A stretch of DNA of 29,130 nucleotides from a virus, in IMG/VR virus record IMGVR_UViG_3300030101_003804, positions 1-29,130 of that record; one strand, given 5' to 3'. Positions 10,772 to 25,760 of the stretch are shown piece by piece. The notes under the pieces are model-generated. The model worked only from the letters and a program-made list of their open reading frames with translations. It had not been told where the DNA came from and did no database searches. A program made the position numbers and the translations under genes. Within the stretch, counting starts at the first letter, position 1. Every line of letters begins with the position of its first letter.

Positions 10772-12958
10772 GTGGCAAACCGTAGAATTAGTGAATTACA
10801 GGAACAGGCGGGTCTCCAATTAGCAGAAGATGATCTATTAACGGTTGTTAATGTATCAGAACCAGATCCAGGATTAAAGAATAAAAAATTAACAATATCA
10901 GGTACAAAAGCGTACTTAAATGTTCATTATTTACCTAGGACAGGCGGTACTATCAGTGGAAATGTAATAATTCAAGATGATTTAACTGTTTCTGGAGCTA
11001 GTACTACATCCGGATTAACCGTAAGCAATTTAGCAAATATAAGTGGAATTGTAGTAACGCAAAACGTTACTGTAACAGGAACTATCAGTGGTACCAACAT
11101 AACTGGTGGATCTATCGAAGGTTCTACTATAAAAGCTGTAACCTTCACGGGAACTACAATCAACGCTGAAAGTGGAAAATTCAGCACCATTGTAAGTGGA
11201 GTCACGGTAACTGGTACTAGTTCTTTATTTACTAATGCAACAGCTACTAATATTACAGGTACTACGGTAACTGGTACTCATGCTTTATTTACAAATTCGA
11301 CAGCTACTAATATTACTGGTACTACGGTAACTGGTACTACAGCTAATTTCACTACTGTTAATGCGGTTGATCTAAATGTTTCTGATGATTTAGATGTAAC
11401 GGATGACACTACTATCGGTGGAGATTTGACAGTCACTGGAGCCGTTAGCATCTTAGGAGATACGGATGTAGGTGATGCCAATACTGACACAATAACTTTT
11501 ACAGCTCGTGTAGATTCTGATTTAGAGCCATCCACAGATGACGAGAGATCTTTTGGAGATTCATCTTTAAGATGGAAAGAGATACATGGCGTAACTGTTG
11601 ATGCAACAACAGGAAATATAACTAACATTACGGCAACTAACATTACAGGCACCACAGTCACAGGAACCAGTGCTTTATTTACAAATGCAACGGCCACTAA
11701 CATTACGGGTACCACCATAACTGGTACATCTGGTTTATTTACGAATGTTACGGCTCAAGATTTTACTGTAGAGGATGATTTTAACGTAGTAGATGATGTG
11801 ACTGTTGGCGGAGATGCAACTGTTACTGGAACGCTTGTGGGAAAGGGAACTATATCAGGAGATATAATTACAGGCGGAACTAAAATCTTATCTCCTTTAA
11901 TAACCGGAGCTACTATTGTTGGTACAACAACAGTTTCAGGTACTACTGTTACAGGTACTAGTGCATTATTTACTAATGCAACAGCTACTAATATTACTGG
12001 TACTACGGTAACTGGTACCACAGCTAATTTCACTACAGGTAACTTTGTAGATCTTAATGTATCTAATGATTTAGATATAACAAATGACACTACTCTCGGA
12101 GGAGATCTAACAGTCACCGGTAATGCTTCGATATTAGGTAATACAGATATAGGTAATGCAAATACTGATACAGTAACTTTTACTGCTCTTGTAGATTCAG
12201 CAATTCTTCCTGATGCAACCGCTAATGATCGTGATCTAGGTAGTACCACTAAAACTTGGAGAGCACTTTATGCAACTACAGTAATAGCTACTACAGGAAC
12301 TATTACTAATATCAATGCGACAGCTATAACTGGAACTACAGTTACCGGCACTACAGCTAACTTCACGACAGGTAATATAACCAACATTACGGCGACTAAT
12401 ATAACTGGCACTACGGTAACTGGTACTAATGCTTTATTCACTAATGCGACTGCTACAAATATTACCGGTACTACAGTTACTGGTACTACTGCGAACTTTA
12501 CCACTATTAATGCAGTAGATCTTAATGTAACTGATGATTTAGGTATAACTGATGACTTAGCAGTAGGTGGAAATCTAACGGTAACTGGAATTACAAGTTT
12601 CTTAGGTAATACAAACTTAGGTGATGCAATTACAGATACAATAACGTTTGCAGGTCGTGTGAATAGTAATATTAATCCTTCAGGAACTACTAGAGATTTA
12701 GGAGTAACTAATAATAGGTGGAGGACATTATTTGTAAATACAGTAAACTCTGTTACGGGTACTATTACCAATATCACAGCGACAAATATAACAGGAACCA
12801 CTGTTACTGGTACTAATGCTCTATTTACTAACGCAACGGCTACAAACATTACAGGAACCACAATTACAGGTGGAACTATCAAAATGAGTGGAGATACAGT
12901 GGCTACTCAGACCTTTGCTGAAGACAGTGCAATCGTATTTGCAATTGCTCTAGGTTAA
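10772..12958 (+). CDS. Tail-fibre-like virion protein with internal repeats (728 aa, GTG start)
   Basis: Phage adhesin or fibre shaft. The N-terminus (MANRRISELQEQ, then LTISGTKAYLN and LPRTGGTISG) is the conserved attachment region of marine cyanophage tail fibres. From about residue 145 a Thr/Asn/Gly-rich beta repeat follows, with TATNITGTT in nine copies and one variant. Three larger modules start near residues 198, 424 and 580; each has a VDLNV-type strand, a D-D-rich stretch, G-G-[DN]-L-T-V-T-G and, downstream, a W-[KR]-x-[IL] turn. The end, with DTVATQTFAED, is short and lacks an obvious receptor-binding tip. Starts with GTG at 10772; no ATG lies nearby in frame. Probably trimeric and displayed on the virion. 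Confidence 0.88.
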   Translation: MANRRISELQEQAGLQLAEDDLLTVVNVSEPDPGLKNKKLTISGTKAYLNVHYLPRTGGTISGNVIIQDDLTVSGASTTSGLTVSNLANISGIVVTQNVTVTGTISGTNITGGSIEGSTIKAVTFTGTTINAESGKFSTIVSGVTVTGTSSLFTNATATNITGTTVTGTHALFTNSTATNITGTTVTGTTANFTTVNAVDLNVSDDLDVTDDTTIGGDLTVTGAVSILGDTDVGDANTDTITFTARVDSDLEPSTDDERSFGDSSLRWKEIHGVTVDATTGNITNITATNITGTTVTGTSALFTNATATNITGTTITGTSGLFTNVTAQDFTVEDDFNVVDDVTVGGDATVTGTLVGKGTISGDIITGGTKILSPLITGATIVGTTTVSGTTVTGTSALFTNATATNITGTTVTGTTANFTTGNFVDLNVSNDLDITNDTTLGGDLTVTGNASILGNTDIGNANTDTVTFTALVDSAILPDATANDRDLGSTTKTWRALYATTVIATTGTITNINATAITGTTVTGTTANFTTGNITNITATNITGTTVTGTNALFTNATATNITGTTVTGTTANFTTINAVDLNVTDDLGITDDLAVGGNLTVTGITSFLGNTNLGDAITDTITFAGRVNSNINPSGTTRDLGVTNNRWRTLFVNTVNSVTGTITNITATNITGTTVTGTNALFTNATATNITGTTITGGTIKMSGDTVATQTFAEDSAIVFAIALG
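11210..12880 (+). repeat. Degenerate coding repeats in the tail-fibre gene
   Basis: Repeats of roughly 45-60 bases encode the TATNITGTT units, in clusters separated by three larger modules (starting near 11365, 12045 and 12511). At protein level copies are nearly identical, but codons differ widely between copies: the Thr-Asn-Ile-Thr-Gly-Thr-Thr stretch uses different synonymous codons in most copies. They are therefore old or diversified repeats rather than fresh tandem duplications. Confidence 0.85.
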
Positions 12959-15570: not shown

Positions 15571-15794
15571 ATCTCATAAATTATTTTTTATCAAAACCAT
15601 CGGTCTATCTTCTTCCAGGGACATGGGAGAAACAGCCTTTAATACCACATGGGCACTATCTCGGATTACCTCCACAGGGACAATTGGTGGCTATCATATT
15701 AATGCTACTGACATTTGTCACTGGATACGGAATCTATCTAGCTTTCGGTCCAGCTAAAGAAAACTTAACTGATCCATGGGACCACGATGACTAA
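15567..15794 (+). CDS. psbN: PsbN homologue with N-terminal extension (75 aa)
   Basis: The C-terminal half (residues 38-75) reads like cyanobacterial PsbN (about 43 aa): one transmembrane helix (about 38-59) ending in V-T-G-Y-G-I-Y-L-A-F-G-P, then a polar tail E-N-L-T-D-P-W-D-H-D-D, matching the family's TG-Y-x-I-Y-x-x-FGP and DPF-E-E-H-E-D pattern. PsbN is needed for repair and early assembly of photosystem II reaction centres. Residues 1-37 are an addition, with an aromatic and Pro-rich stretch (WEKQPLIPHGHYLGLPP) that could face the cytoplasm. The ATG overlaps the previous stop by 4 bases, and its own stop overlaps the next gene by 8. Such a gene would fit psbA and hli in the same genome. 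Confidence 0.75.
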   Translation: MNLINYFLSKPSVYLLPGTWEKQPLIPHGHYLGLPPQGQLVAIILMLLTFVTGYGIYLAFGPAKENLTDPWDHDD

Positions 15795-16158
15795 CAAAGA
15801 CGTATCACTTACAAAACACCTAACTGATGAAGAAAGAGAAGCCATCAGAGAAGACCTTATTGAACAAGATAAAAGAGCCGCTTTCATGAGGCATTTATAC
15901 CATGTTTTTGGACGTAATGATCCTAAGCATCCTAAACACGGATTTTATACAGGTTTATGGGAAGAATTTTGTATAGAAGAAGCCGGTTATGTAGTACGAG
16001 AAATGTTCTTTGAAAGGCTAGAAGCGGTTAGACTATATGAAAAGAATAAAAAACAACAAGCAGAAAATTTAAAAAAATACCAAGAAACTATTGACTCTAA
16101 TGTTTACACCAGCCCCCTTCCAGAATCAGATTCCAACGACGGCGAATCAGGAGAATAA
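15787..16158 (+). CDS. Hypothetical charged helical protein (123 aa)
   Basis: Not recognised. Rich in Glu, Lys and Arg; the N-terminal third is helical (LTDEEREAIREDLIEQDKR), the middle contains an F-G-R-N-D-P-K-H-P-K-H-G-F-Y-T-G-L-W-E-E-F-C segment that looks well ordered, and the C-terminal 35 residues are low-complexity and acidic. No membrane helix. It overlaps PsbN by 8 bases and its last 59 bases are also read, in another frame, by the Dps gene; the acidic tail may thus be shaped by that overlap. Confidence 0.7.
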   Translation: MTNKDVSLTKHLTDEEREAIREDLIEQDKRAAFMRHLYHVFGRNDPKHPKHGFYTGLWEEFCIEEAGYVVREMFFERLEAVRLYEKNKKQQAENLKKYQETIDSNVYTSPLPESDSNDGESGE

Positions 16159-16660
16159 CCAACAACCTGAAACGAAGGAACAGACTCCTAAAAATAAAAC
16201 CTCGTCTCCTAAAGATGAGATAGGGAGTTTCATCAAGACGTTGACGGGAGTAGCGGGGTATCTTCATGAGTTACAAACACAAGCACATCTAATTCATCTT
16301 AACTATGAAGCTGGAAATTTCTTGCCTGTTCATAAGTTTTTGAAGAAACAATACGAGCTACATCTCAAACAGTTCGATGAAATAGGAGAATTGATACGTT
16401 CAATGGATTATTTATTACCTATGTGTCATGAAGGGCTGATGGATGCCACTCCTAAGTTTGATCATGTTAAGAGCTATGATGCCAGTGAAATGCTTATGGG
16501 ATACTATAAGAATTTAGAAAACTTAGGTATCATGTGTAAAAAAGTACAGGCTACAGCCAAAAAACAAAAGGCTATAGATATAGAAAATTATATGGCAGAA
16601 CTATGTGGAGATTGTTTTAAATCTGCTTGGATGATCAAAGCTACATTGAGAAAGGCATGA
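16100..16660 (+). CDS. dps: Dps-family mini-ferritin with disordered N-terminal tail (186 aa)
   Basis: Dps proteins form 12-mers that oxidise Fe(II) with peroxide, store iron and often bind DNA. Residues 66-97 align without gaps to E. coli Dps, and the four ferroxidase ligands are all present: H66, H78, D93, E97 (E. coli H51, H63, D78, E82). The helix pattern continues to about residue 180, with a Cys-x-x-Cys-like C168-G-D-C near the end. The first 42 residues are Pro/Gln/Lys-rich and look disordered, like DNA-binding tails of other Dps proteins. The ATG at 16100 is preferred to the TTG at 16091 in the same frame. It overlaps the previous gene by 59 bases and the next by 4 (ATGA). Confidence 0.8.
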   Translation: MFTPAPFQNQIPTTANQENNQQPETKEQTPKNKTSSPKDEIGSFIKTLTGVAGYLHELQTQAHLIHLNYEAGNFLPVHKFLKKQYELHLKQFDEIGELIRSMDYLLPMCHEGLMDATPKFDHVKSYDASEMLMGYYKNLENLGIMCKKVQATAKKQKAIDIENYMAELCGDCFKSAWMIKATLRKA

Positions 16661-17507: not shown

Positions 17508-17768
17508 TCAGGCAACTTCCTTGAAATGATGTATGCGGTGACAGTTACTGCATAAAGGAATGCATTTGTCTATCTCATTCATGATTGTTGCCCAACCATA
17601 TCCTTGGTAGATCAGCTGAGATACTTCAGTATGTTTATCTCGTAAATGATGAAAATCAATAACTCTATGGTCTCTGACTCCGCAGTGATCACACCGTACT
17701 TTCTTTTTATAATCAATATATTTCTTACGATTCTCTTTTATTCTTTTTTTATCCCTAGACCAAGGCAT
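17508..17768 (-). CDS. Small HNH endonuclease (86 aa)
   Basis: Compact HNH nuclease. C-D-H-C at about 26-29, then VIDFHHLRDKH (His-His pair; the second His is the likely general base), and C-S-N-C-H-R-I-H-H at about 73-81 completing the zinc site and third motif. The N-terminus is strongly basic (RDKKRIKENRKKYIDYKKK) for DNA contact. It resembles free-standing HNH proteins of marine phages that match HNH domains of restriction or homing enzymes. It starts one base after the upstream gene's stop and precedes the 137-aa gene by 32 bases. Confidence 0.88.
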   Translation of the reverse strand: MPWSRDKKRIKENRKKYIDYKKKVRCDHCGVRDHRVIDFHHLRDKHTEVSQLIYQGYGWATIMNEIDKCIPLCSNCHRIHHFKEVA

Positions 17769-17769
17769 A

Positions 17770-18636
17770 TTAAGTTGTGAGACCTATACCCCTGAAGTTC
17801 TCCCAATCATCATCATTTAAATCATCATCTTCTTTGTTTATAGAGTAATTTATTGCTCCATCCACCATTTCTTCTGGACTGGTACTAGCTGCTACTTCTG
17901 CAGCTACCGTTTCTTCTACGATTGCATTATAGAGATTAGGATCAAAACCAGTCATACCTGATTCCTGTTTAACTTCCTTGGGAGTTTTCCAGAAGTAATC
18001 ATCAACCTCTCCTAATCTTCCCCATTTGGGTACATGCTCTACGTTAAAGTACCTGGTGGACACCTTGAAATCAGGTCTTTTCAGTTCATGGTTACTCAAG
18101 GAAGTATCTGTCATGCGACAACGATTGTTGGGATAGGCACCTATCTGTCCATTATCCAGCTCAATAATATTATGAGACTTATGTTCATCAGGTGATTCTG
18201 CAAAATAAAAATCAGGTTCATTTCTATGAGGATGATAGTTATCTATGGTAAATAAGTATGTACCTTTCATGATGCCGTTATCTCTGGTCATCACCTCGAA
18301 GTCCATATTAAATATAAGATTCTTCTCCACAACAGTAAGACCGGTGTCAAAACCATTCCAGAACTGTAGATCAGTTAAAGGTAGATCAGGTGTTGGTAAC
18401 TCAGGTTTATGAGGATGATCGGGGTCCCAAGATAAAAAGGCACTGATAGGAAGCTTGTCATATAAAGCCCCATATTCTGTGAGATAGGTTTCAAAATATA
18501 ATGCCCTGCCTGAAATGGATTTACATGTAACCCAATAACCTAGAGTATATTCTCCATGTCCATCACGTAAATCTCTTAAATATTCACGTCTTACCCAGAC
18601 TTTTGTAGGTGGTAAATTTGCTACTAAAGTTGTCAT
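17770..18636 (-). CDS. Conserved-looking cyanophage protein, unknown function (288 aa)
   Basis: No domain recognised. The N-terminal block (VWVRREYLRDLRDGHGEYTLGYWV, read in part as residues 13-36) and the following ALYFETYLTEYGALYDKLP look highly constrained, rich in aromatic and charged residues as in a folded beta protein. The C-terminal 80 residues are low-complexity and acidic (E/D/N-rich, ending near EDDDLNDDDWENF). No membrane segment. Similar starts (TTLVANLPP) occur in other marine phage proteins as I recall, without known role. Its ATG overlaps the methyltransferase stop by one base, so the two are probably coupled. Confidence 0.7.
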   Translation of the reverse strand: MTTLVANLPPTKVWVRREYLRDLRDGHGEYTLGYWVTCKSISGRALYFETYLTEYGALYDKLPISAFLSWDPDHPHKPELPTPDLPLTDLQFWNGFDTGLTVVEKNLIFNMDFEVMTRDNGIMKGTYLFTIDNYHPHRNEPDFYFAESPDEHKSHNIIELDNGQIGAYPNNRCRMTDTSLSNHELKRPDFKVSTRYFNVEHVPKWGRLGEVDDYFWKTPKEVKQESGMTGFDPNLYNAIVEETVAAEVAASTSPEEMVDGAINYSINKEDDDLNDDDWENFRGIGLTT

Positions 18637-19289
18637 TAATCAATCTCCTCCCAGATCCAACCGACTTGGTATCCATCTATGTATGGTGGGATACCCAAAG
18701 AATCCATCAATTCATAAATCATTCTTCCTTTTCCATGTTTTTGTTTACTTTTTTCTGATTCTGGTATGAATAAATTATCATCAACTACTATTAATGTTCC
18801 ATCTTTAATAACATTTTTAGCAGCAAATAATTCTTTTAAATGATGTGCAGAAGCTTTCCAATCATCTAACCAATTATAAATATTGTAGGAGTCTAAATAA
18901 AGTAAATCAACATTACCATCAAGTGTGGATAAAAACTCAATTGAATCACCTTCTATGACCTCGGCATAAGTTGTTAATCTCTCTGCAGTTTTACATGCTT
19001 TAGGATCTATATCTACCGTAATTAAGTTACCTCCTTGTGTTCCTATATAGTGATCAAATAAAACAGTGGAACAACCATCTCCTTCAAAATTATTTTCTTC
19101 ACGAACCGTTCCAGTCTCTACGATTACGGGGTCTTCTATTGTTTTTAAATATTCAAAGATTTTGGTAAAACCTATCTCCCTTAATCCTAGTAAAGGTTTA
19201 ATATCTTCATAATAGACGGACCAGTCTGGCATGGATAAAGTACAGTCCTTATTTATCTCTTTCTCTGTATTAATATTGTGCATATTCAT
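18636..19289 (-). CDS. Class I SAM-dependent methyltransferase (217 aa)
   Basis: Rossmann-type methyltransferase of the Methyltransf_24-like group. Motif I region at about 55-75 (VIVETGTVREENN, then GDGCSTVLFDHY), acidic motif II in LITVDIDPKA (about 90-99), a G-D-S-I-E-F-L segment and the D-L-L-Y-L-D-S-Y motif IV (about 128-135), then TLIVVDDN. The usual Gly-rich loop is replaced by T-G-T plus a short insertion, as in related sugar O-methyltransferase-like proteins. The substrate is unknown; sugar or small-molecule modification is more likely than DNA, given the absence of a DPPY or PC motif. Start and stop overlap both neighbours. Confidence 0.85.
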   Translation of the reverse strand: MNMHNINTEKEINKDCTLSMPDWSVYYEDIKPLLGLREIGFTKIFEYLKTIEDPVIVETGTVREENNFEGDGCSTVLFDHYIGTQGGNLITVDIDPKACKTAERLTTYAEVIEGDSIEFLSTLDGNVDLLYLDSYNIYNWLDDWKASAHHLKELFAAKNVIKDGTLIVVDDNLFIPESEKSKQKHGKGRMIYELMDSLGIPPYIDGYQVGWIWEEID

Positions 19290-19438
19290 AACTCAATCCT
19301 CACGTAATCTATTCGATGATCTCTTAAATCTCTTTCATGATCATCTGCTCTTTGTAAGGGATAATCATCATATGCAAAACCTTTAAATCTCTCTCCAATC
19401 TTTTCCCCATAATAGAAGCGAACTTTATTTAAAGTCAT
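19286..19438 (-). CDS. Small charged hypothetical protein, first gene of leftward operon (50 aa)
   Basis: Short protein rich in Arg, Asp and Tyr (MTLNKVRFYYGEKIG start; DDHERDLRDHRIDY near the end). Its TGA overlaps the methyltransferase ATG (ATGA at 19286-19289), strong support that it is translated. No family recognised. It faces the nuclease gene at 19548 over a 109-base AT-rich divergent spacer that should hold promoters for both directions. Confidence 0.65.
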   Translation of the reverse strand: MTLNKVRFYYGEKIGERFKGFAYDDYPLQRADDHERDLRDHRIDYVRIEL

Positions 19439-19547
19439 GAATATTTTTCACCTATTATAAACATAACAAAAACTATAATTTAGAGCAAAAAATATTAGAT
19501 ATTTTGTAATTTTTCTGATAAATTATAATTAACAGCTAAAGTTTTTA

Positions 19548-20369
19548 ATGATAATTAACAATTTAGGCGTTAAATCTCTGGATCAAATTAACAAGAATCC
19601 ATGTAGAATTACGCTTAACGGGAAAAGACATTACACTACACCTTTAGCTACAGGACCTGCTCCTTCAGTTACTACGATGATCTCAGAAACAGCATCTGAG
19701 CAGAACAAAAAGAAACTGGAAATGTGGGCGAAGAATAATCCAGGGGTAAAAGAAAAAGCAGCAGAAAGAGGAACGGCTATACATTATGGAATGGAACAAT
19801 ATCTCAAAGGAAATAAGAATCCCGTAATACAGGAAGAATATAAAGATTACTGGGCAGGTATGCCAAAGATACTGGATCAGTTCAGTCAGGTTGTATGGGC
19901 AGAATCTCCCGTGTTGGAAAAGTATAAGTTTACATTGGGATCTGATGACGTAGCTCGTGTCTGGGGATATGACGATGAGGGCAGGGCATGGGCTGGTGCT
20001 CCTGACATAATAGGTATCGCTAATAATAAAATCACATTGGCAGATTTAAAAACCAGTATCAGACCGTACAGTCGCTATTGGCCGAAGAATCAGCAGAAAG
20101 GTTCACAACTATGGAAAGAATTGATAGGTGGACATATGAAGTTTAAAAAATGTTGTAAACAATTAGCTGCTTATGATATAGGTATAGAACAGACTCTGGG
20201 TATAAAAATAGAACAGGCTGCTATCTTGGTTTCAACACCAAAGAGAACACAAATCTTTAAAATATCCCGAAGATTATTAGATTCTTTCCGAAAGGATTGG
20301 TATAAGATTGTAGAAGAATATTATGCACAAATTGAGAACTGTAATGTATATGATGCCGATGCAATTTAA
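19548..20369 (+). CDS. PD-(D/E)XK exonuclease, MGME1/RecB-like (273 aa)
   Basis: Nuclease of the PD-(D/E)XK fold, probably a single-strand DNA exonuclease serving replication or recombination. Motifs: R-G-T-A-I-H (H79) in helix 1, E119, G-A-P-D with D153, L-A-D-L-K-T-S with D166 and K168, and the Q-L-A-A-Y motif (Q205, Y209). The Asp-13-Asp-2-Lys spacing equals that of the MGME1 catalytic set as I recall it (D238, D251, K253). The first 60 residues hold a substrate-binding region with TTPLATGPAPSVTT. It heads the rightward operon that includes the primase-helicase, so a role in Okazaki or flap processing or in host DNA breakdown is likely. Confidence 0.85.
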   Translation: MIINNLGVKSLDQINKNPCRITLNGKRHYTTPLATGPAPSVTTMISETASEQNKKKLEMWAKNNPGVKEKAAERGTAIHYGMEQYLKGNKNPVIQEEYKDYWAGMPKILDQFSQVVWAESPVLEKYKFTLGSDDVARVWGYDDEGRAWAGAPDIIGIANNKITLADLKTSIRPYSRYWPKNQQKGSQLWKELIGGHMKFKKCCKQLAAYDIGIEQTLGIKIEQAAILVSTPKRTQIFKISRRLLDSFRKDWYKIVEEYYAQIENCNVYDADAI

Positions 20370-20568
20370 CCGACTAATTAACTGGTTTAACAACATATTA
20401 TCTGAGTCTAAATTAAAATCTAGGTTTAATGAAATAGAAAGAAAATATAAAATTAAGTTTGATAAAGATTTTAAACAAAGAGAACACATTAAGACAGGTA
20501 TAAAAGCCAAAAAGCTAGTCAGAGACATAAGTTTTAAAGCTAAATGGTTAAATTTTTTTAAAAATTAA
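20359..20568 (+). CDS. Small basic hypothetical protein (69 aa)
   Basis: Lys/Phe/Asn-rich helical protein overlapping the end of the nuclease by 11 bases in another frame. Several in-frame ATGs exist (20323, 20344, 20350, 20353, 20359); the last gives the least overlap and is used here, with 20353 also possible. Composition suggests nucleic-acid binding, but no family is recognised and AT-rich sequence can mimic such peptides. Confidence 0.5.
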   Translation: MQFNRLINWFNNILSESKLKSRFNEIERKYKIKFDKDFKQREHIKTGIKAKKLVRDISFKAKWLNFFKN

Positions 20569-20651
20569 TTCTTAATATTTTGCAAGAAATATAGCATTGT
20601 TTTCTTGAGTAGGAAGAGATAGGATTATTAATACACACACAAATACTACCG

Positions 20652-20825
20652 ATGAAAATTAATGTTTCAATCGGTGAGTGGATGACATCTCTAAAGGATC
20701 GAATGGAAAAGGCATCTGATGGAGATTGTTTTTATCTTCCCACCCAAATGCACCTACATGCTTTTCACATAATGGAAGAGCAATTCCCAGATAAACATTT
20801 CATGGTAAAAATGTATGCAATATAA
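20652..20825 (+). CDS. Small hypothetical protein (57 aa)
   Basis: An ORF rich in Met, His and Asp/Glu (start MKINVSIGEWMTSLKDRM; FYLPTQMHLHAFHIMEE in the middle). It looks like a small alpha/beta domain rather than random translation. It is followed by an ORF overlapping its last 11 bases. Position inside the replication operon suggests early expression. No family known. Confidence 0.55.
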   Translation: MKINVSIGEWMTSLKDRMEKASDGDCFYLPTQMHLHAFHIMEEQFPDKHFMVKMYAI

Positions 20826-20952
20826 AAGTATTAGGACTATCAAGGTCAATGATGATATTATTCAAGGAAGAAAAAGTGGCATAGCTGTCGAATCATACTA
20901 CGCTAAACCTGATTTCTTAATTCAAATCATCTTAAAAACCAAAAATGACTGA
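20815..20952 (+). CDS. Small hypothetical protein (45 aa)
   Basis: A short basic ORF bridging the previous ORF and the primase-helicase: it overlaps the former by 11 bases and the latter by 8, in different frames. Such stacking suggests translational coupling into the primase gene. The sequence (MQYKSIRTIKVNDDIIQG start) looks beta-rich. No family recognised. Confidence 0.5.
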   Translation: MQYKSIRTIKVNDDIIQGRKSGIAVESYYAKPDFLIQIILKTKND

Positions 20953-23539
20953 GCAGAAGAAAAAACCTCTCAGACCGGGAGAGTTTAATCTTTCTTATAT
21001 ACCTATAGATTGGCCTCTAACACCTCTCGGAAAGAATAAAGATCCATACATAAAAGGATGGCAAAACAACCCCCTCAGCAAGAGTGAGATAGAGGAGGAA
21101 TTAACCGAGGGATACTGTAAGGCTATCGGTTTATTAGGTGGTCCTGTTTATAATCACCCTTATGGATTAGTCTGGGTTGATATTGATGGACCATCTGTAT
21201 ATAAGGCAATACAGGATCTATGTGAATTACCACTTGATAAAGCATTACCTGACACCTTGACTATATGCAGTGGTAAAAAAGGCAGGGAAAGAAAACTATA
21301 TAAATTAAAAAGAGAACATCACAAGCACTTTATTCGTAATAAATATACTTGGCACTCTGATGCTCCCAAGGAGAAATTAGAAATACTATGGTCTAAACAT
21401 CAGGGAGTTCTCATGGGACTACACCCTGAGACAGATGGTTACTATACAGCTGAGAATCAGGGCTTTGAACACGCAGATAAATTACCGGAACTACCAAGTT
21501 GGTTGATGAATTCGATAATAAATAAGAATGCTAAACAAGGTAGGCCAGCTGCTCAAACGACTAGAATTGTAGGTCCTGGTTTTGCTCTTAACGCTAAAAT
21601 AGGATTAGAGCGAGATATGCAGTTAGCAAGAGAAGCTATGTGGGCTTTGCCTCCAGAAGCTACTGATGACTACGATATCTGGATAACGATTGGTCAATCC
21701 CTTCATGCCTTAGATAACTCTCTAATGGAAGAATGGGATGAATGGTCGAAACAATCTAATAAATATAAAGAAGGAGAGTGTCAAAAAAGATGGTTAGGAT
21801 TTGATAAAGGAGGAGCTAGAACTCTGGGCTCTCTAATACATATAGCTAAAGAACACGGCTGGAAGCCATCTCAGGACTGGCGACAAGAAGAAATAACAGA
21901 AGAAGAATTAGATAGACAAACAAACGAATTGAGATCTTCATACGAAACACCTATGCCTACACATAATAAGAAAAAACTATCTGCTAAACCAGCCCTTAGC
22001 ATGGCTCAGGCTCCTTTATCTATACCTCAGGGAAGAGGACAGAAACCAAAAAACCCTTCTTCAGACCTCATATCTCAAATTCTTCTACAAACTTATAAAG
22101 GAAATCTAAAATATAGTCAGAATCAGGGTTGTTTTTTCATATATGAGTATAAAAGTAAAGGGTTATGGTCAGGGATCTCTGACACAGAAATGAAAGGAGA
22201 GGTGAAACATAGACTGGATTTAGTAAAAGACAGCTTGTTACCCAGTGGTTACAGCATGAATCTGGTTAATGATATTGTTGAACAGCTCAGAATATCAGTA
22301 ATATTTGATGAATGGTACGAAAGCAACAATCATTTGTTATTTACTAATGGGGTTTTAAACGTAAATACAAAACAGCTTCTTCCTTTTAAGAGGGATATGT
22401 ATTTTACTCAACAATTACCTTATGACTACACACCAAATTCAGAATGTGAATTAATTATTAAGTGGTTAAAGAATACTCAAGATGGTAATTGGGATAGGGT
22501 TCAAGTACTAAGGGCATGGTTAAGAGCTGTACTTCTAAGTCATTCAGACATACAGAAGTTTGTTGAAATAGTAGGGCCAGGTAAATCCGGTAAGTCTACA
22601 TACGCTAATTTGGCACATGCACTGGTGGGTGATGATAATGCAATGATCTCCTCATTAGAGCATTTAGAGAAAAATCGTTTTGAAACGGCTAATTTATATA
22701 AGAAAAAGTTATTGTTATTCAATGATGTAGAAAGATATGGTGGTTCTGTGTCAGTTCTAAAAGCTATCACTGGTAGAGACCTGATCCGTAATGAAAGAAA
22801 GTTTCAGTCTGGTTCCCAAAAACCATTTAAGTTTAATGGCTTGGTGATGATTACTGCTAATGAACCCATACAGACTACCGACCCTACATCCGGTTTAGCT
22901 AGAAGAAGACTGACCATACCTTTTGATAAACCCTTTCTTGGTAAGGCTATCGAACAAAGAACACTGATAGATATGGATGATAGAGGTAAACCTTTTGGGG
23001 ACTTTGCTAATCTACTTCCCGGTTTGGTGAACTGGTTGTTGGATATGTCTGAAGATGAGATGAAGGAATATCTTATGGAAACAACCCAGAAAGTTAATTT
23101 CTTTGCAAAGCATCATAGAGAACAAATACTTAAATCTAATCAGATAATGGATTGGATGGAACATTGTTTGATATTCGATGAGAACGCATCAGCTCCAATA
23201 GGGTTGGCAAAAGCAGCTCCAGCTGGATCTTCCAATGTTTATATGGCTTCTGAAAAGTGGTTATATGCCAGTTACTGTGAATTTTCCAGAGCTTCAAACA
23301 GTAATATCTTAGGTAGAAGCAGATTTGAAACCTTATTAATAGACGTTTGTGTTCATCAGCTGGGATTGAAAGTCTATAAGATGAAAGATCGTAGAGGAGT
23401 CAGAGTTATAAATATAGCCTGTCGCATGTCCGACCAGAGATATAGCCAATACCCTTCAATTATTGAAGTAGGGCTAAACAAAGAGGCGTGGATAGAGCAA
23501 TATGGAAGTATATTAAATACACAAACACAATCATCCTAA
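20945..23539 (+). CDS. Prim-Pol/SF3 helicase fusion, D5-like replicative primase-helicase (864 aa)
   Basis: Three parts are visible. Residues about 20-190: archaeo-eukaryotic primase/polymerase domain with K-G-W-Q near 38-40, the metal-binding V-W-V-D-I-D-G (D79, D81) and C-S-G-K-K-G-R. Residues about 225-305: a PriCT-2-like helical domain (YDIWITIGQSLHAL, then W-S-K-Q-S-N-K-Y). Residues about 370-730: D5_N plus SF3 helicase with Walker A GPGKSGKST (544-552), Walker B LLLFND (589-594), sensor ITANEP (N639) and an Arg cluster ARRRLT near 656 as arginine finger. The protein should prime and unwind phage DNA. It lies between a nuclease and speD and overlaps both small upstream ORF and speD. This is unlike the separate T4 gp41/gp61 enzymes. 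Confidence 0.93.
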   Translation: MTEQKKKPLRPGEFNLSYIPIDWPLTPLGKNKDPYIKGWQNNPLSKSEIEEELTEGYCKAIGLLGGPVYNHPYGLVWVDIDGPSVYKAIQDLCELPLDKALPDTLTICSGKKGRERKLYKLKREHHKHFIRNKYTWHSDAPKEKLEILWSKHQGVLMGLHPETDGYYTAENQGFEHADKLPELPSWLMNSIINKNAKQGRPAAQTTRIVGPGFALNAKIGLERDMQLAREAMWALPPEATDDYDIWITIGQSLHALDNSLMEEWDEWSKQSNKYKEGECQKRWLGFDKGGARTLGSLIHIAKEHGWKPSQDWRQEEITEEELDRQTNELRSSYETPMPTHNKKKLSAKPALSMAQAPLSIPQGRGQKPKNPSSDLISQILLQTYKGNLKYSQNQGCFFIYEYKSKGLWSGISDTEMKGEVKHRLDLVKDSLLPSGYSMNLVNDIVEQLRISVIFDEWYESNNHLLFTNGVLNVNTKQLLPFKRDMYFTQQLPYDYTPNSECELIIKWLKNTQDGNWDRVQVLRAWLRAVLLSHSDIQKFVEIVGPGKSGKSTYANLAHALVGDDNAMISSLEHLEKNRFETANLYKKKLLLFNDVERYGGSVSVLKAITGRDLIRNERKFQSGSQKPFKFNGLVMITANEPIQTTDPTSGLARRRLTIPFDKPFLGKAIEQRTLIDMDDRGKPFGDFANLLPGLVNWLLDMSEDEMKEYLMETTQKVNFFAKHHREQILKSNQIMDWMEHCLIFDENASAPIGLAKAAPAGSSNVYMASEKWLYASYCEFSRASNSNILGRSRFETLLIDVCVHQLGLKVYKMKDRRGVRVINIACRMSDQRYSQYPSIIEVGLNKEAWIEQYGSILNTQTQSS

Positions 23540-23913
23540 TGCAACCTGGAAAACACCTGATACTAGACCTCTATGGATGTGAGGCAGATTTATTAAATGA
23601 TTATGAAAAATTAAAATATATCTTTGAAGATACCTTATGTATATGTAATGCAACTGTATTAAATATTATAGGTAATAAATTTGAACCTCAGGGAGTTACA
23701 TTGTTAGCTTTGTTGGCAGAATCACATGCTTCAATACACACTTGGCCTGAACATAATTACTGTGCAGTAGATTTTTATACATGTGGAGACTTCTCAAGAC
23801 CACAGGGTATTGCCGATCATTTGTTTATAAAATTTGGGGCTAAATCTCGTTTGGAAAGAACCTTGGATCGTGCTCCAAAATTGTGTATATTTAAGGAAGA
23901 ATACACCTCTTAA
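23539..23913 (+). CDS. speD: S-adenosylmethionine decarboxylase proenzyme (124 aa)
   Basis: Makes decarboxylated SAM, the aminopropyl donor for spermidine. Class 1b bacterial enzyme: the self-cleavage site lies in L-A-E-S-H-A-S-I-H-T-W-P-E, where S62 becomes the pyruvoyl group, H67 is the proton donor, and C82 in F-Y-T-C-G is the third catalytic residue; spacing equals T. maritima S63, H68, C83. The length is normal for the family. The ATG at 23539 overlaps the primase stop (TAATG), whereas an upstream ATG at 23488 lies within the primase. A typical cyanophage auxiliary gene; polyamines may aid DNA packing or host metabolism. The glycosyltransferase starts immediately after its stop. Confidence 0.95.
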   Translation: MQPGKHLILDLYGCEADLLNDYEKLKYIFEDTLCICNATVLNIIGNKFEPQGVTLLALLAESHASIHTWPEHNYCAVDFYTCGDFSRPQGIADHLFIKFGAKSRLERTLDRAPKLCIFKEEYTS

Positions 23914-25182
23914 ATGATTAAAAAACCTAAGCTTTTATGGATAGGAGATATAGTAGCAAAAACAGGATTCGCTAGAGTTACCGAAAACGTATTACCATTT
24001 ATTAAAGATGATTTTGAGATAGTAGTTTTAGGAAACAATTGGTGGGGAGATCCCTCTCCATTACAGAAGATCTATACAATGTATCCTTCCTCTAATCGTT
24101 TCCAGACAGCTCCCTTCGGAGAAGAACGTATTAGAGAAATAGTAATGAAGATTGAACCAGATATTATATTTACTATTAATGATATGTGGATTGTTAATGA
24201 GCAATATAAACAGATACAGGACATGCACAAAGATGGAAGATTTAAATTTGTGGGTTATGTGCCTATGGATTCTTATAACTGGACTGGATGTTTAACCGAT
24301 ACTGCCAATGATTGGGATGGGATTGTTTCATACACGGAGTTTGGTGCCAGAGAATTTATTAAAGCTGGAATAACAAAACCAATCGCAGTAATCCCTCATG
24401 GAGTAACAGAGGGTCAATTCTATCCAGTAGATAAGAAGGAAGCAAGAAAGAAATTAAAACTTAGTGATGATTTATTCATAGTATTTAATGGAAATAGAAA
24501 TCAATTCCGGAAGAGAATAGATATAACTTGTGAAGCCTTCGCTAAATTTGCAGTCGGAAAACCGAACACCAGATTATATCTACACATGGGATTAAAAGAT
24601 CAGGGTTGGGATATCATGCCCTTGTTTAGTCGGGAAATGCACAAGCAGGGATTAGATCCTAATGGGAGAATAATAATGACCACGAATACTCAAGATCCTC
24701 CCAATGTAGAAGTGGATATGCTCAACACCATATATAATGTATGCGATGTTGGTGTAAATACCTGTAAAGGAGAAGGATGGGGTTTAGTGAATTTTGAACA
24801 CGCCGCATGTAAAGTGGCACAAGTAGTTCCTAATCACACATCCTGTAAGGAAATATTCGAGGGCTATGGACAACTTATAGATTGCAATCATGTTGATGTC
24901 GACACCACTTTTGCTAGGGAAATGCCTTGCCCAGATGCTGATCACCTTGCAAGTATCCTTAATAAACTGTACGAAGACAAAGAAAAACGAGAAGCAACGG
25001 CAGAACTCTGTTACGTAAGAGCTACAGATCCACAATTCCATTGGAAGAATATCGCTTCACAATTTGGAGGGGTGTTCCAAGATACTCTTAATGGTGTAAG
25101 TCATTCAGTTATTGATAATAAAGAAAAGATAAAACCAAAAAGAAATAGAAAGAAATCCAGAAAGATTGGTGCAGTTAAATGA
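23914..25182 (+). CDS. Glycosyltransferase, GT4 family GT-B fold (422 aa)
   Basis: Retaining-type glycosyltransferase. The N-terminal Rossmann domain begins at residue 6 (LLWIGDIVAKTGFARVT, the Gly loop for acceptor/donor). The linker V-I-P-H-G-V (about 160) and the second domain with F-N-G-N-R-N-Q-F-R-K-R-I-D follow, then the EX7E motif with E287 and E295 in G-E-G-W-G-L-V-N-F-E, the donor-sugar site. The C-terminal 20 residues are strongly basic (KPKRNRKKSRK) and could bind membrane or nucleic acid. The substrate is unknown: it may glycosylate virion or host surface or DNA bases. It abuts speD and overlaps the cupin gene by 4 bases (ATGA). Confidence 0.9.
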   Translation: MIKKPKLLWIGDIVAKTGFARVTENVLPFIKDDFEIVVLGNNWWGDPSPLQKIYTMYPSSNRFQTAPFGEERIREIVMKIEPDIIFTINDMWIVNEQYKQIQDMHKDGRFKFVGYVPMDSYNWTGCLTDTANDWDGIVSYTEFGAREFIKAGITKPIAVIPHGVTEGQFYPVDKKEARKKLKLSDDLFIVFNGNRNQFRKRIDITCEAFAKFAVGKPNTRLYLHMGLKDQGWDIMPLFSREMHKQGLDPNGRIIMTTNTQDPPNVEVDMLNTIYNVCDVGVNTCKGEGWGLVNFEHAACKVAQVVPNHTSCKEIFEGYGQLIDCNHVDVDTTFAREMPCPDADHLASILNKLYEDKEKREATAELCYVRATDPQFHWKNIASQFGGVFQDTLNGVSHSVIDNKEKIKPKRNRKKSRKIGAVK

Positions 25183-25760
25183 TATTAAGTATGAGAGAAT
25201 TGCAGATGCTAAAACATCAATTGCAATTAATCAGGTCATATAAAGGACCTCTTAATGGAACACTGGGTAGCAAAGTTTATGAGCCATGGCATGATGGATT
25301 ATATTATAAAGTTTTAAAGGAGATTAGCATGCTTAAAAATAACAAACATCCGGAAAATTGTGACTGTAATTTATGTGAAGATGAGGAATTATTAAAAGAA
25401 AATAAAAAAACAAATCATCAAAAAGTGTATAAGCCTTGGGGTTGGTATCAGGATCTTTATGTAGATGATAATTTCAAGACAAAAATGTTATGTATTCATG
25501 AAGGAAAACGTATAAGTTTACAACGACATCATTGGAGATCAGAAGTATGGACTATTGCAGCTGGATCTGGTTCCGTATTTTGTAATGATGAATGGCATTT
25601 GGCACATCCAAAGCAGACATTTACCATTCCTGAATGTACATTACATCGTGCAAAAGCATTAAAAGGTGATCTATATATCATGGAATTACAACATGGTAAA
25701 GAATTGTATGAAGAAGATATTGAAAGAGTTGAAGATGACTATGGAAGAGAGGTATCATAA
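25179..25760 (+). CDS. Cupin, type II mannose-6-phosphate isomerase-like, with Cys-containing N-terminus (193 aa)
   Basis: The C-terminal domain (about 85-193) matches the cupin of ManC/AlgA-type enzymes: K-P-W-G-W-Y-Q-D-L, the metal-binding block I-S-L-Q-R-H-H-W-R-S-E-V-W with two His and a Glu, T-I-P-E-C-T-L-H-R-A (third His), and the C-terminal E-D-I-E-R-V-E-D-D-Y-G-R. It could interconvert fructose- and mannose-6-phosphate to supply GDP-mannose, or act as a related sugar epimerase. The first 85 residues are different: helices and a C-D-C-N-L-C cluster that may bind metal. Coupled to the glycosyltransferase by ATGA overlap, implying a joint role in glycan synthesis. A terminator follows. 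Confidence 0.85.
   Translation: MILSMRELQMLKHQLQLIRSYKGPLNGTLGSKVYEPWHDGLYYKVLKEISMLKNNKHPENCDCNLCEDEELLKENKKTNHQKVYKPWGWYQDLYVDDNFKTKMLCIHEGKRISLQRHHWRSEVWTIAAGSGSVFCNDEWHLAHPKQTFTIPECTLHRAKALKGDLYIMELQHGKELYEEDIERVEDDYGREVS

Follow-up and report, generated by a model that had tools for sequence, protein, structure and literature searches.

The window analyzed here is a stretch of viral DNA of 29,130 nucleotides (IMG/VR record IMGVR_UViG_3300030101_003804). The first-pass annotation had placed in it a phage-encoded Dps mini-ferritin with an intact ferroxidase site. We asked whether the gene encodes a Dps protein, how closely its iron site follows that of canonical Dps, and what the protein might do during infection.

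The gene and its predicted fold

The open reading frame starts at ATG 16100, stops at TGA 16658–16660 and translates into 186 residues (ORF list and translation), as the first-pass annotation had proposed. The gene, its parts and the overlapping upstream ORF are the following.

16100..16660, plus strand: Dps-family mini-ferritin coding sequence, 186 aa (ORF call; PF00210 match, 5.8e-10; PDB Dps matches; AlphaFold2/Foldseek)
16100..16225, plus strand: N-terminal tail, residues 1–42, Pro/Gln-rich, predicted to be disordered (pLDDT <50 for residues 1–35)
16226..16657, plus strand: four-helix Dps core (AlphaFold2 helices; Foldseek TM, normalized by target, 0.81–0.91 to many Dps chains)
15787..16158, plus strand: small ORF upstream of the Dps gene, family c17, present also in the Synechococcus phage isolate S-EIV1 and relatives

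An alternative start codon, TTG, lies three codons 5' of ATG 16100; the alignments of the S-EIV1 homologue and of the closest contigs begin at the ATG. The 3' end of the upstream ORF overlaps the start of the Dps tail by 59 bases. This overlap is probably the reason why the synonymous rate (dS) is lowered in the tail in the closest pairs.

The translated product matched Pfam family PF00210 (Ferritin) at 5.8e-10 and 39.7 bits, 15 bits above the curated cut-off of 24.5 bits. The solved relatives closest in sequence were Dps proteins (PDB sequence search). The best of these, C. jejuni 3kwo, was matched at 2.5e-6 with the single protein and at 8.6e-12 with the family profile, and the profile matches to solved Dps spanned the whole core. 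A PHROG match was obtained to phrog_3636, 'DNA binding protein' (1e-26), and a search of NCBIfam returned no match. The similarity to Dps seen in the Pfam, PHROG and PDB searches goes well beyond what chance would produce.

The AlphaFold2 model, built with 39 family sequences, had a mean pLDDT of 83; pLDDT exceeded 90 over most of the core and fell below 50 in residues 1–35. The modeled helices comprise residues 37–68, 74–101, 113–116, 128–155 and 159–185. In the B–C connection, where Dps proteins have a short BC helix as a hallmark, the model shows only a very short helix of four residues (113–116). A fifth C-terminal helix is absent: after helix D (159–185), the modeled chain continues for no more than two residues. 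When the model was compared with the PDB by Foldseek, all 50 best matches were of the Dps family (TM 0.73–0.91, normalized by target). The Pfam match, the model and Foldseek thus agree on the ferritin-like four-helix bundle of Dps mini-ferritins, and the earlier identification as Dps, which had called for a search against PF00210 and a structure model, was confirmed by both. Judged by sequence and predicted structure, the protein is a genuine mini-ferritin of the Dps family and belongs to the S-EIV1 lineage of cyanophages.

The protein shares with canonical bacterial Dps (E. coli, C. jejuni 3kwo, and P. aeruginosa PA0962) the fold, the helix order, the residues equivalent to H51/H63/D78/E82 and the lack of a fifth helix, whereas sequence identity to them is only ~15–26%. 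It differs from them by Lys in place of D/E67, Leu in place of Trp52, His in place of Leu73, and a longer, disordered tail. Full-length alignment with the S-EIV1 homologue (AHV82153.1), which takes in the beginning of the tail, gives 55% identity. Other phage Dps proteins (Lactobacillus phages Semele and LP65, gp346 of Bacillus phage G, and uncultured Caudovirales) have the Dps fold and are mostly already annotated, but reach only 13–23% identity to the window protein in structural alignments.

Phage Dps as such is therefore already known, and the window protein is not new in kind. A predicted Dps has been discussed in a paper on Lactobacillus plantarum phages (PMC6669764), and our search for an experimentally tested phage Dps found none in the literature that could be searched. 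The expectation that such a gene would normally be annotated as hypothetical did not hold: AHV82153.1 is named 'DNA-binding ferritin-like protein', PHROG 3636 is labeled as a DNA binding protein, and Dps is the name given in BFVD to many phage entries, one of them from Lactobacillus phage Semele. Because the closest studied relative already carries a ferritin-like label, the interest of this locus lies in its altered iron site and not in the existence of the protein.

The ferroxidase site

Residues 66–97 of the window protein align without gaps to residues 51–82 of E. coli Dps, the sequence of which was verified against PDB 1f30. H66, H78, D93 and E97 correspond to H51, H63, D78 and E82, so the alignment and the four ligands described in the first-pass annotation stand. 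The codons of interest are listed below.

16295..16297, plus strand: H66, ferroxidase ligand by alignment with E. coli Dps H51
16331..16333, plus strand: H78, ferroxidase ligand by alignment with E. coli Dps H63
16343..16345, plus strand: K82, aligned with E. coli D67, the fifth residue of the canonical ferroxidase center; all clade members have Lys or Gly here
16361..16363, plus strand: H88, a His that is invariant in the clade and specific to it; E. coli Dps has Leu73
16376..16378, plus strand: D93, ferroxidase ligand by alignment with E. coli Dps D78
16388..16390, plus strand: E97, ferroxidase ligand by alignment with E. coli Dps E82

The canonical Dps ferroxidase center consists of five residues, the fifth being Asp/Glu67 (PMC6675082). 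The description of the site as intact was too strong, because four of the five canonical residues are kept but the fifth, D67, is Lys82 in the window protein. The adjacent residue 83 is also Lys, and is Asp or Glu in many relatives; S-EIV1 Dps has G82-E83 where the window protein has K82-K83.

Relatives were collected in two scans of viral contigs, which gave 59 relatives in the first scan and the best 80 of 291 in the second. The clade analyzed comprises 98 non-redundant sequences and leaves out two from a different phage type (L058/L060). H63, H66, N68, H78, Y85, H88, D93, E97, R100 and W177 (window numbering) are invariant in this clade, although the conservation of residues 78–85 is partly built in, as some loci were chosen by exact peptide patterns that included HKFLKKQ(Y). 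H63, H66, H88, D93 and E97 fall outside the selection patterns, and most sequences are without HKFLKKQY, which was carried by 41 of 100 non-redundant sequences. The H51/H63/D78/E82 ligand set, with Dps spacing, was present in 140/140 relatives examined. In pairs with measurable dS, the dN/dS ratio of the core was ~0.02–0.08, which indicates that the Dps gene is under strong purifying selection.

The clade also departs from the canonical site. The position of E. coli D67 is Lys or Gly, never Asp or Glu, in 98/98 clade members. The conserved Trp beside the first His (E. coli Trp52) is replaced by Leu or Phe in the clade. The invariant His88 takes the place of a hydrophobic residue, which is Leu in E. 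coli, Met in C. jejuni and Leu in PA0962. Since D67 is replaced and the neighboring Trp is lost, metal binding at site B and the associated redox chemistry may be weak or altered.

The lack of an acid at position 67 excludes a canonical site but not membership of the Dps family, because the cyanobacterial His-type Dps proteins NpDps4 and TeDpsA lack it too (PMC6675082). A His-type ferroxidase center of the NpDps4 class was considered for the window protein and rejected: His-type Dps proteins have His at position 78, where the window protein and all other members keep Asp (D93). In NpDps4, which has Asn67, two irons are nevertheless bound, other residues substituting for the acid (PMC6675082). 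By this analogy, ferroxidase activity of the window protein despite Lys82 is likely, though not assured.

The same residues admit a reading in which ferroxidase activity has been lost or greatly changed, Lys82 fills site B, the protein acts mainly as a single-metal site or binds another metal (e.g., Zn or Mn), and H88 helps to support an altered core. It would account for Lys or Gly in every clade member, for the lost Trp, and for an invariant His where solved Dps have Leu, Met or Phe. However, the other four ligands are invariant, ideal-helix geometry would place H88 off the ligand face, and the two irons of NpDps4 speak against a strict need for the acid. We consider this reading rather unlikely. 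A related proposal is that the remodeling across this whole and widespread lineage of cyanophages (Lys/Gly, the lost Trp, His88 and a neutral to acidic tail) reflects a virus-specific iron or metal chemistry, unlike that of both canonical and His-type Dps; we put it forward tentatively, as a possibility. The lineage-wide change at the ferroxidase site seems to be undescribed, as far as the literature could be searched, and it poses a clean and testable question: how much of the canonical site does a Dps protein need?

Proposed function and the N-terminal tail

What the analysis establishes for the window protein is its family and fold, the presence of four conserved ligands where a fifth is lost, and conservation of the gene under purifying selection. 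The function that we favor, and regard as probable, is that of a putative 12-subunit shell that would oxidize and store Fe(II) during infection and thereby limit Fenton chemistry. The subunits would assemble into the shell and bind ferrous iron at inter-subunit sites, formed by H66 and H78 of one subunit and D93 and E97 of its neighbor. The iron would then be oxidized with peroxide or O2 and stored as a ferric mineral. Less Fe(II) would then remain free in the course of infection, and both the phage DNA, as it replicates, and the photosynthetic host would suffer less Fenton damage. This reading draws on the PF00210 match, the Dps profile matches, the model, the chain end after helix D, the four ligands in all 140 relatives, the low dN/dS and the presence of the gene in S-EIV1 and in all five long contigs found via the primase, and also on the psbA and hli-like genes that the phage carries (see below). 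Counted against it are Lys82, with Lys or Gly throughout the clade at the fifth position, and the lost Trp.

The first-pass annotation had further described a Pro/Gln/Lys-rich tail and suggested that Dps can bind DNA through such tails. The tail is Pro/Gln-rich and contains four Lys, but it is not basic: counted over residues 1–45, the four Lys face five Asp/Glu, giving a net charge of −1. The positively charged N- or C-terminal tail of E. coli-type DNA-binding Dps was thus not found at either end, as the chain stops almost directly after helix D. Within the family, the S-EIV1-like half has net tail charges of −1 to +3, and the other half has charges of −3 to −9. Since half of the family has an acidic tail, DNA binding by a basic tail is not a family property. 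DNA binding through the tail of the window protein was rejected on charge.

These charges bear on the wider idea that, like E. coli Dps, the protein might coat or condense DNA, either that of the phage or that of the host. Membership of the Dps family, the name of PHROG 3636 and the weakly basic tails of a few relatives (up to +3) agree with this idea. Nevertheless, the net tail charge is −1 in the window protein and −3 to −9 in the second half of the family, and there are Dps proteins that protect DNA but do not bind to it, as stated in the PDB title of Agrobacterium Dps 1o9r. A DNA-coating role is therefore improbable in our judgment.

Lineage and gene neighborhood

The window is colinear with S-EIV1: 12 window ORFs have S-EIV1 matches, mostly in the same order. 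Downstream of the Dps gene lies the block that places the window in the S-EIV1 lineage by its colinearity.

17508..25182: block colinear with S-EIV1, comprising HNH, methyltransferase, nuclease-like, primase, speD and glycosyltransferase genes

The left end of the window (positions 1–534) is a psbA fragment, its 3' part. The cyanophage context assumed in the first-pass annotation was thus supported by both psbA and the colinearity with S-EIV1. Two hli-like ORFs were read by eye at 1024–1215 and 1331–1564; hli and ptoX have been reported for the S-EIV1 group (PMC5332604). The S-EIV1 genome differs from the window in that a sulfate adenylyltransferase gene comes after Dps and psbA is absent. A search of 21 other records, among them the complete S-EIV1 but otherwise mostly fragments, found neither psbA nor any related reaction-centre gene. 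A photosystem-specific role for Dps, such as the scavenging of photosystem iron suggested in the first-pass annotation, is therefore not indicated.

The Dps gene was present in S-EIV1 and in 5/5 contigs of 77–83 kb that were found via the window's primase. Its presence in all of these points to Dps as a core gene of the S-EIV1 lineage. Among the shorter primase contigs tested, four, which are fragments, had no Dps match, and one further contig (L191, G028) had a Dps match in three pieces, in different frames and with one stop, which may be a broken gene or a sequencing error. The S-EIV1 group makes up 3.3% of marine cyanophage content (PMC5332604). If the protein acts on iron, iron handling and redox protection would stand beside photosynthesis genes among the genes that this abundant cyanophage lineage conserves.

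A scan of 84,980 genomes revealed no cellular Dps with the clade signature, and a second cellular scan gave only one distant Dps, from Halobacteriovorax (29%). In a tree with four cellular outgroups, the 98 phage sequences formed one clade (100/98) on very long branches; because of these branches, we claim no origin from the tree.

The position of the gene differs between the two halves of the family. In the S-EIV1-like lineage, Dps follows tail-like genes. In the second, acidic-tail clade (L023–L057), it lies within the structural and lysis block, encoded on the other strand from the genes of that block, and mostly adjoins a small HTH/excisionase-like ORF. There it looks like a separately controlled moron, inserted recurrently in a moron-like manner.

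Proximity to tail-like and structural genes, together with Dps-like folds inside BFVD proteins named prohead protease, would suit a component used in the virion or in its assembly, either to deliver iron or to protect the packaged DNA. The opposite strand and the moron-like setting in the second clade argue against such a component, which we hold to be very improbable. The BFVD proteins in question (A0A6J7WPK9, A0A6J7XDU5, and A0A6J7WIS1) are of 333–763 aa and come from uncultured Caudovirales phages, which suggests that Dps domains are fused to head-assembly proteins in those phages. For the window protein, the putative iron-oxidizing shell remains our preferred reading.

Several other window ORFs merit mention. 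The ORF at 10772–12958 encodes a 728 aa protein in which TNITGTTVTG-like units are repeated; it is probably a tail fibre and has no strong family match. The product of 17770–18636 matched PHROG 3704, named ferredoxin (2.2e-98), but this label looks doubtful, since Pfam gave no domain and the S-EIV1 homologue is annotated as PurM. Positions 23488–23913 encode an S-adenosylmethionine decarboxylase (PF02675, 2.5e-32), the annotated S-EIV1 homologue of which is only 52 aa long. Finally, a mannose-6-phosphate isomerase-type cupin (PF01050, 6.4e-24) is encoded at 25179–25760 and adjoins a glycosyltransferase gene.
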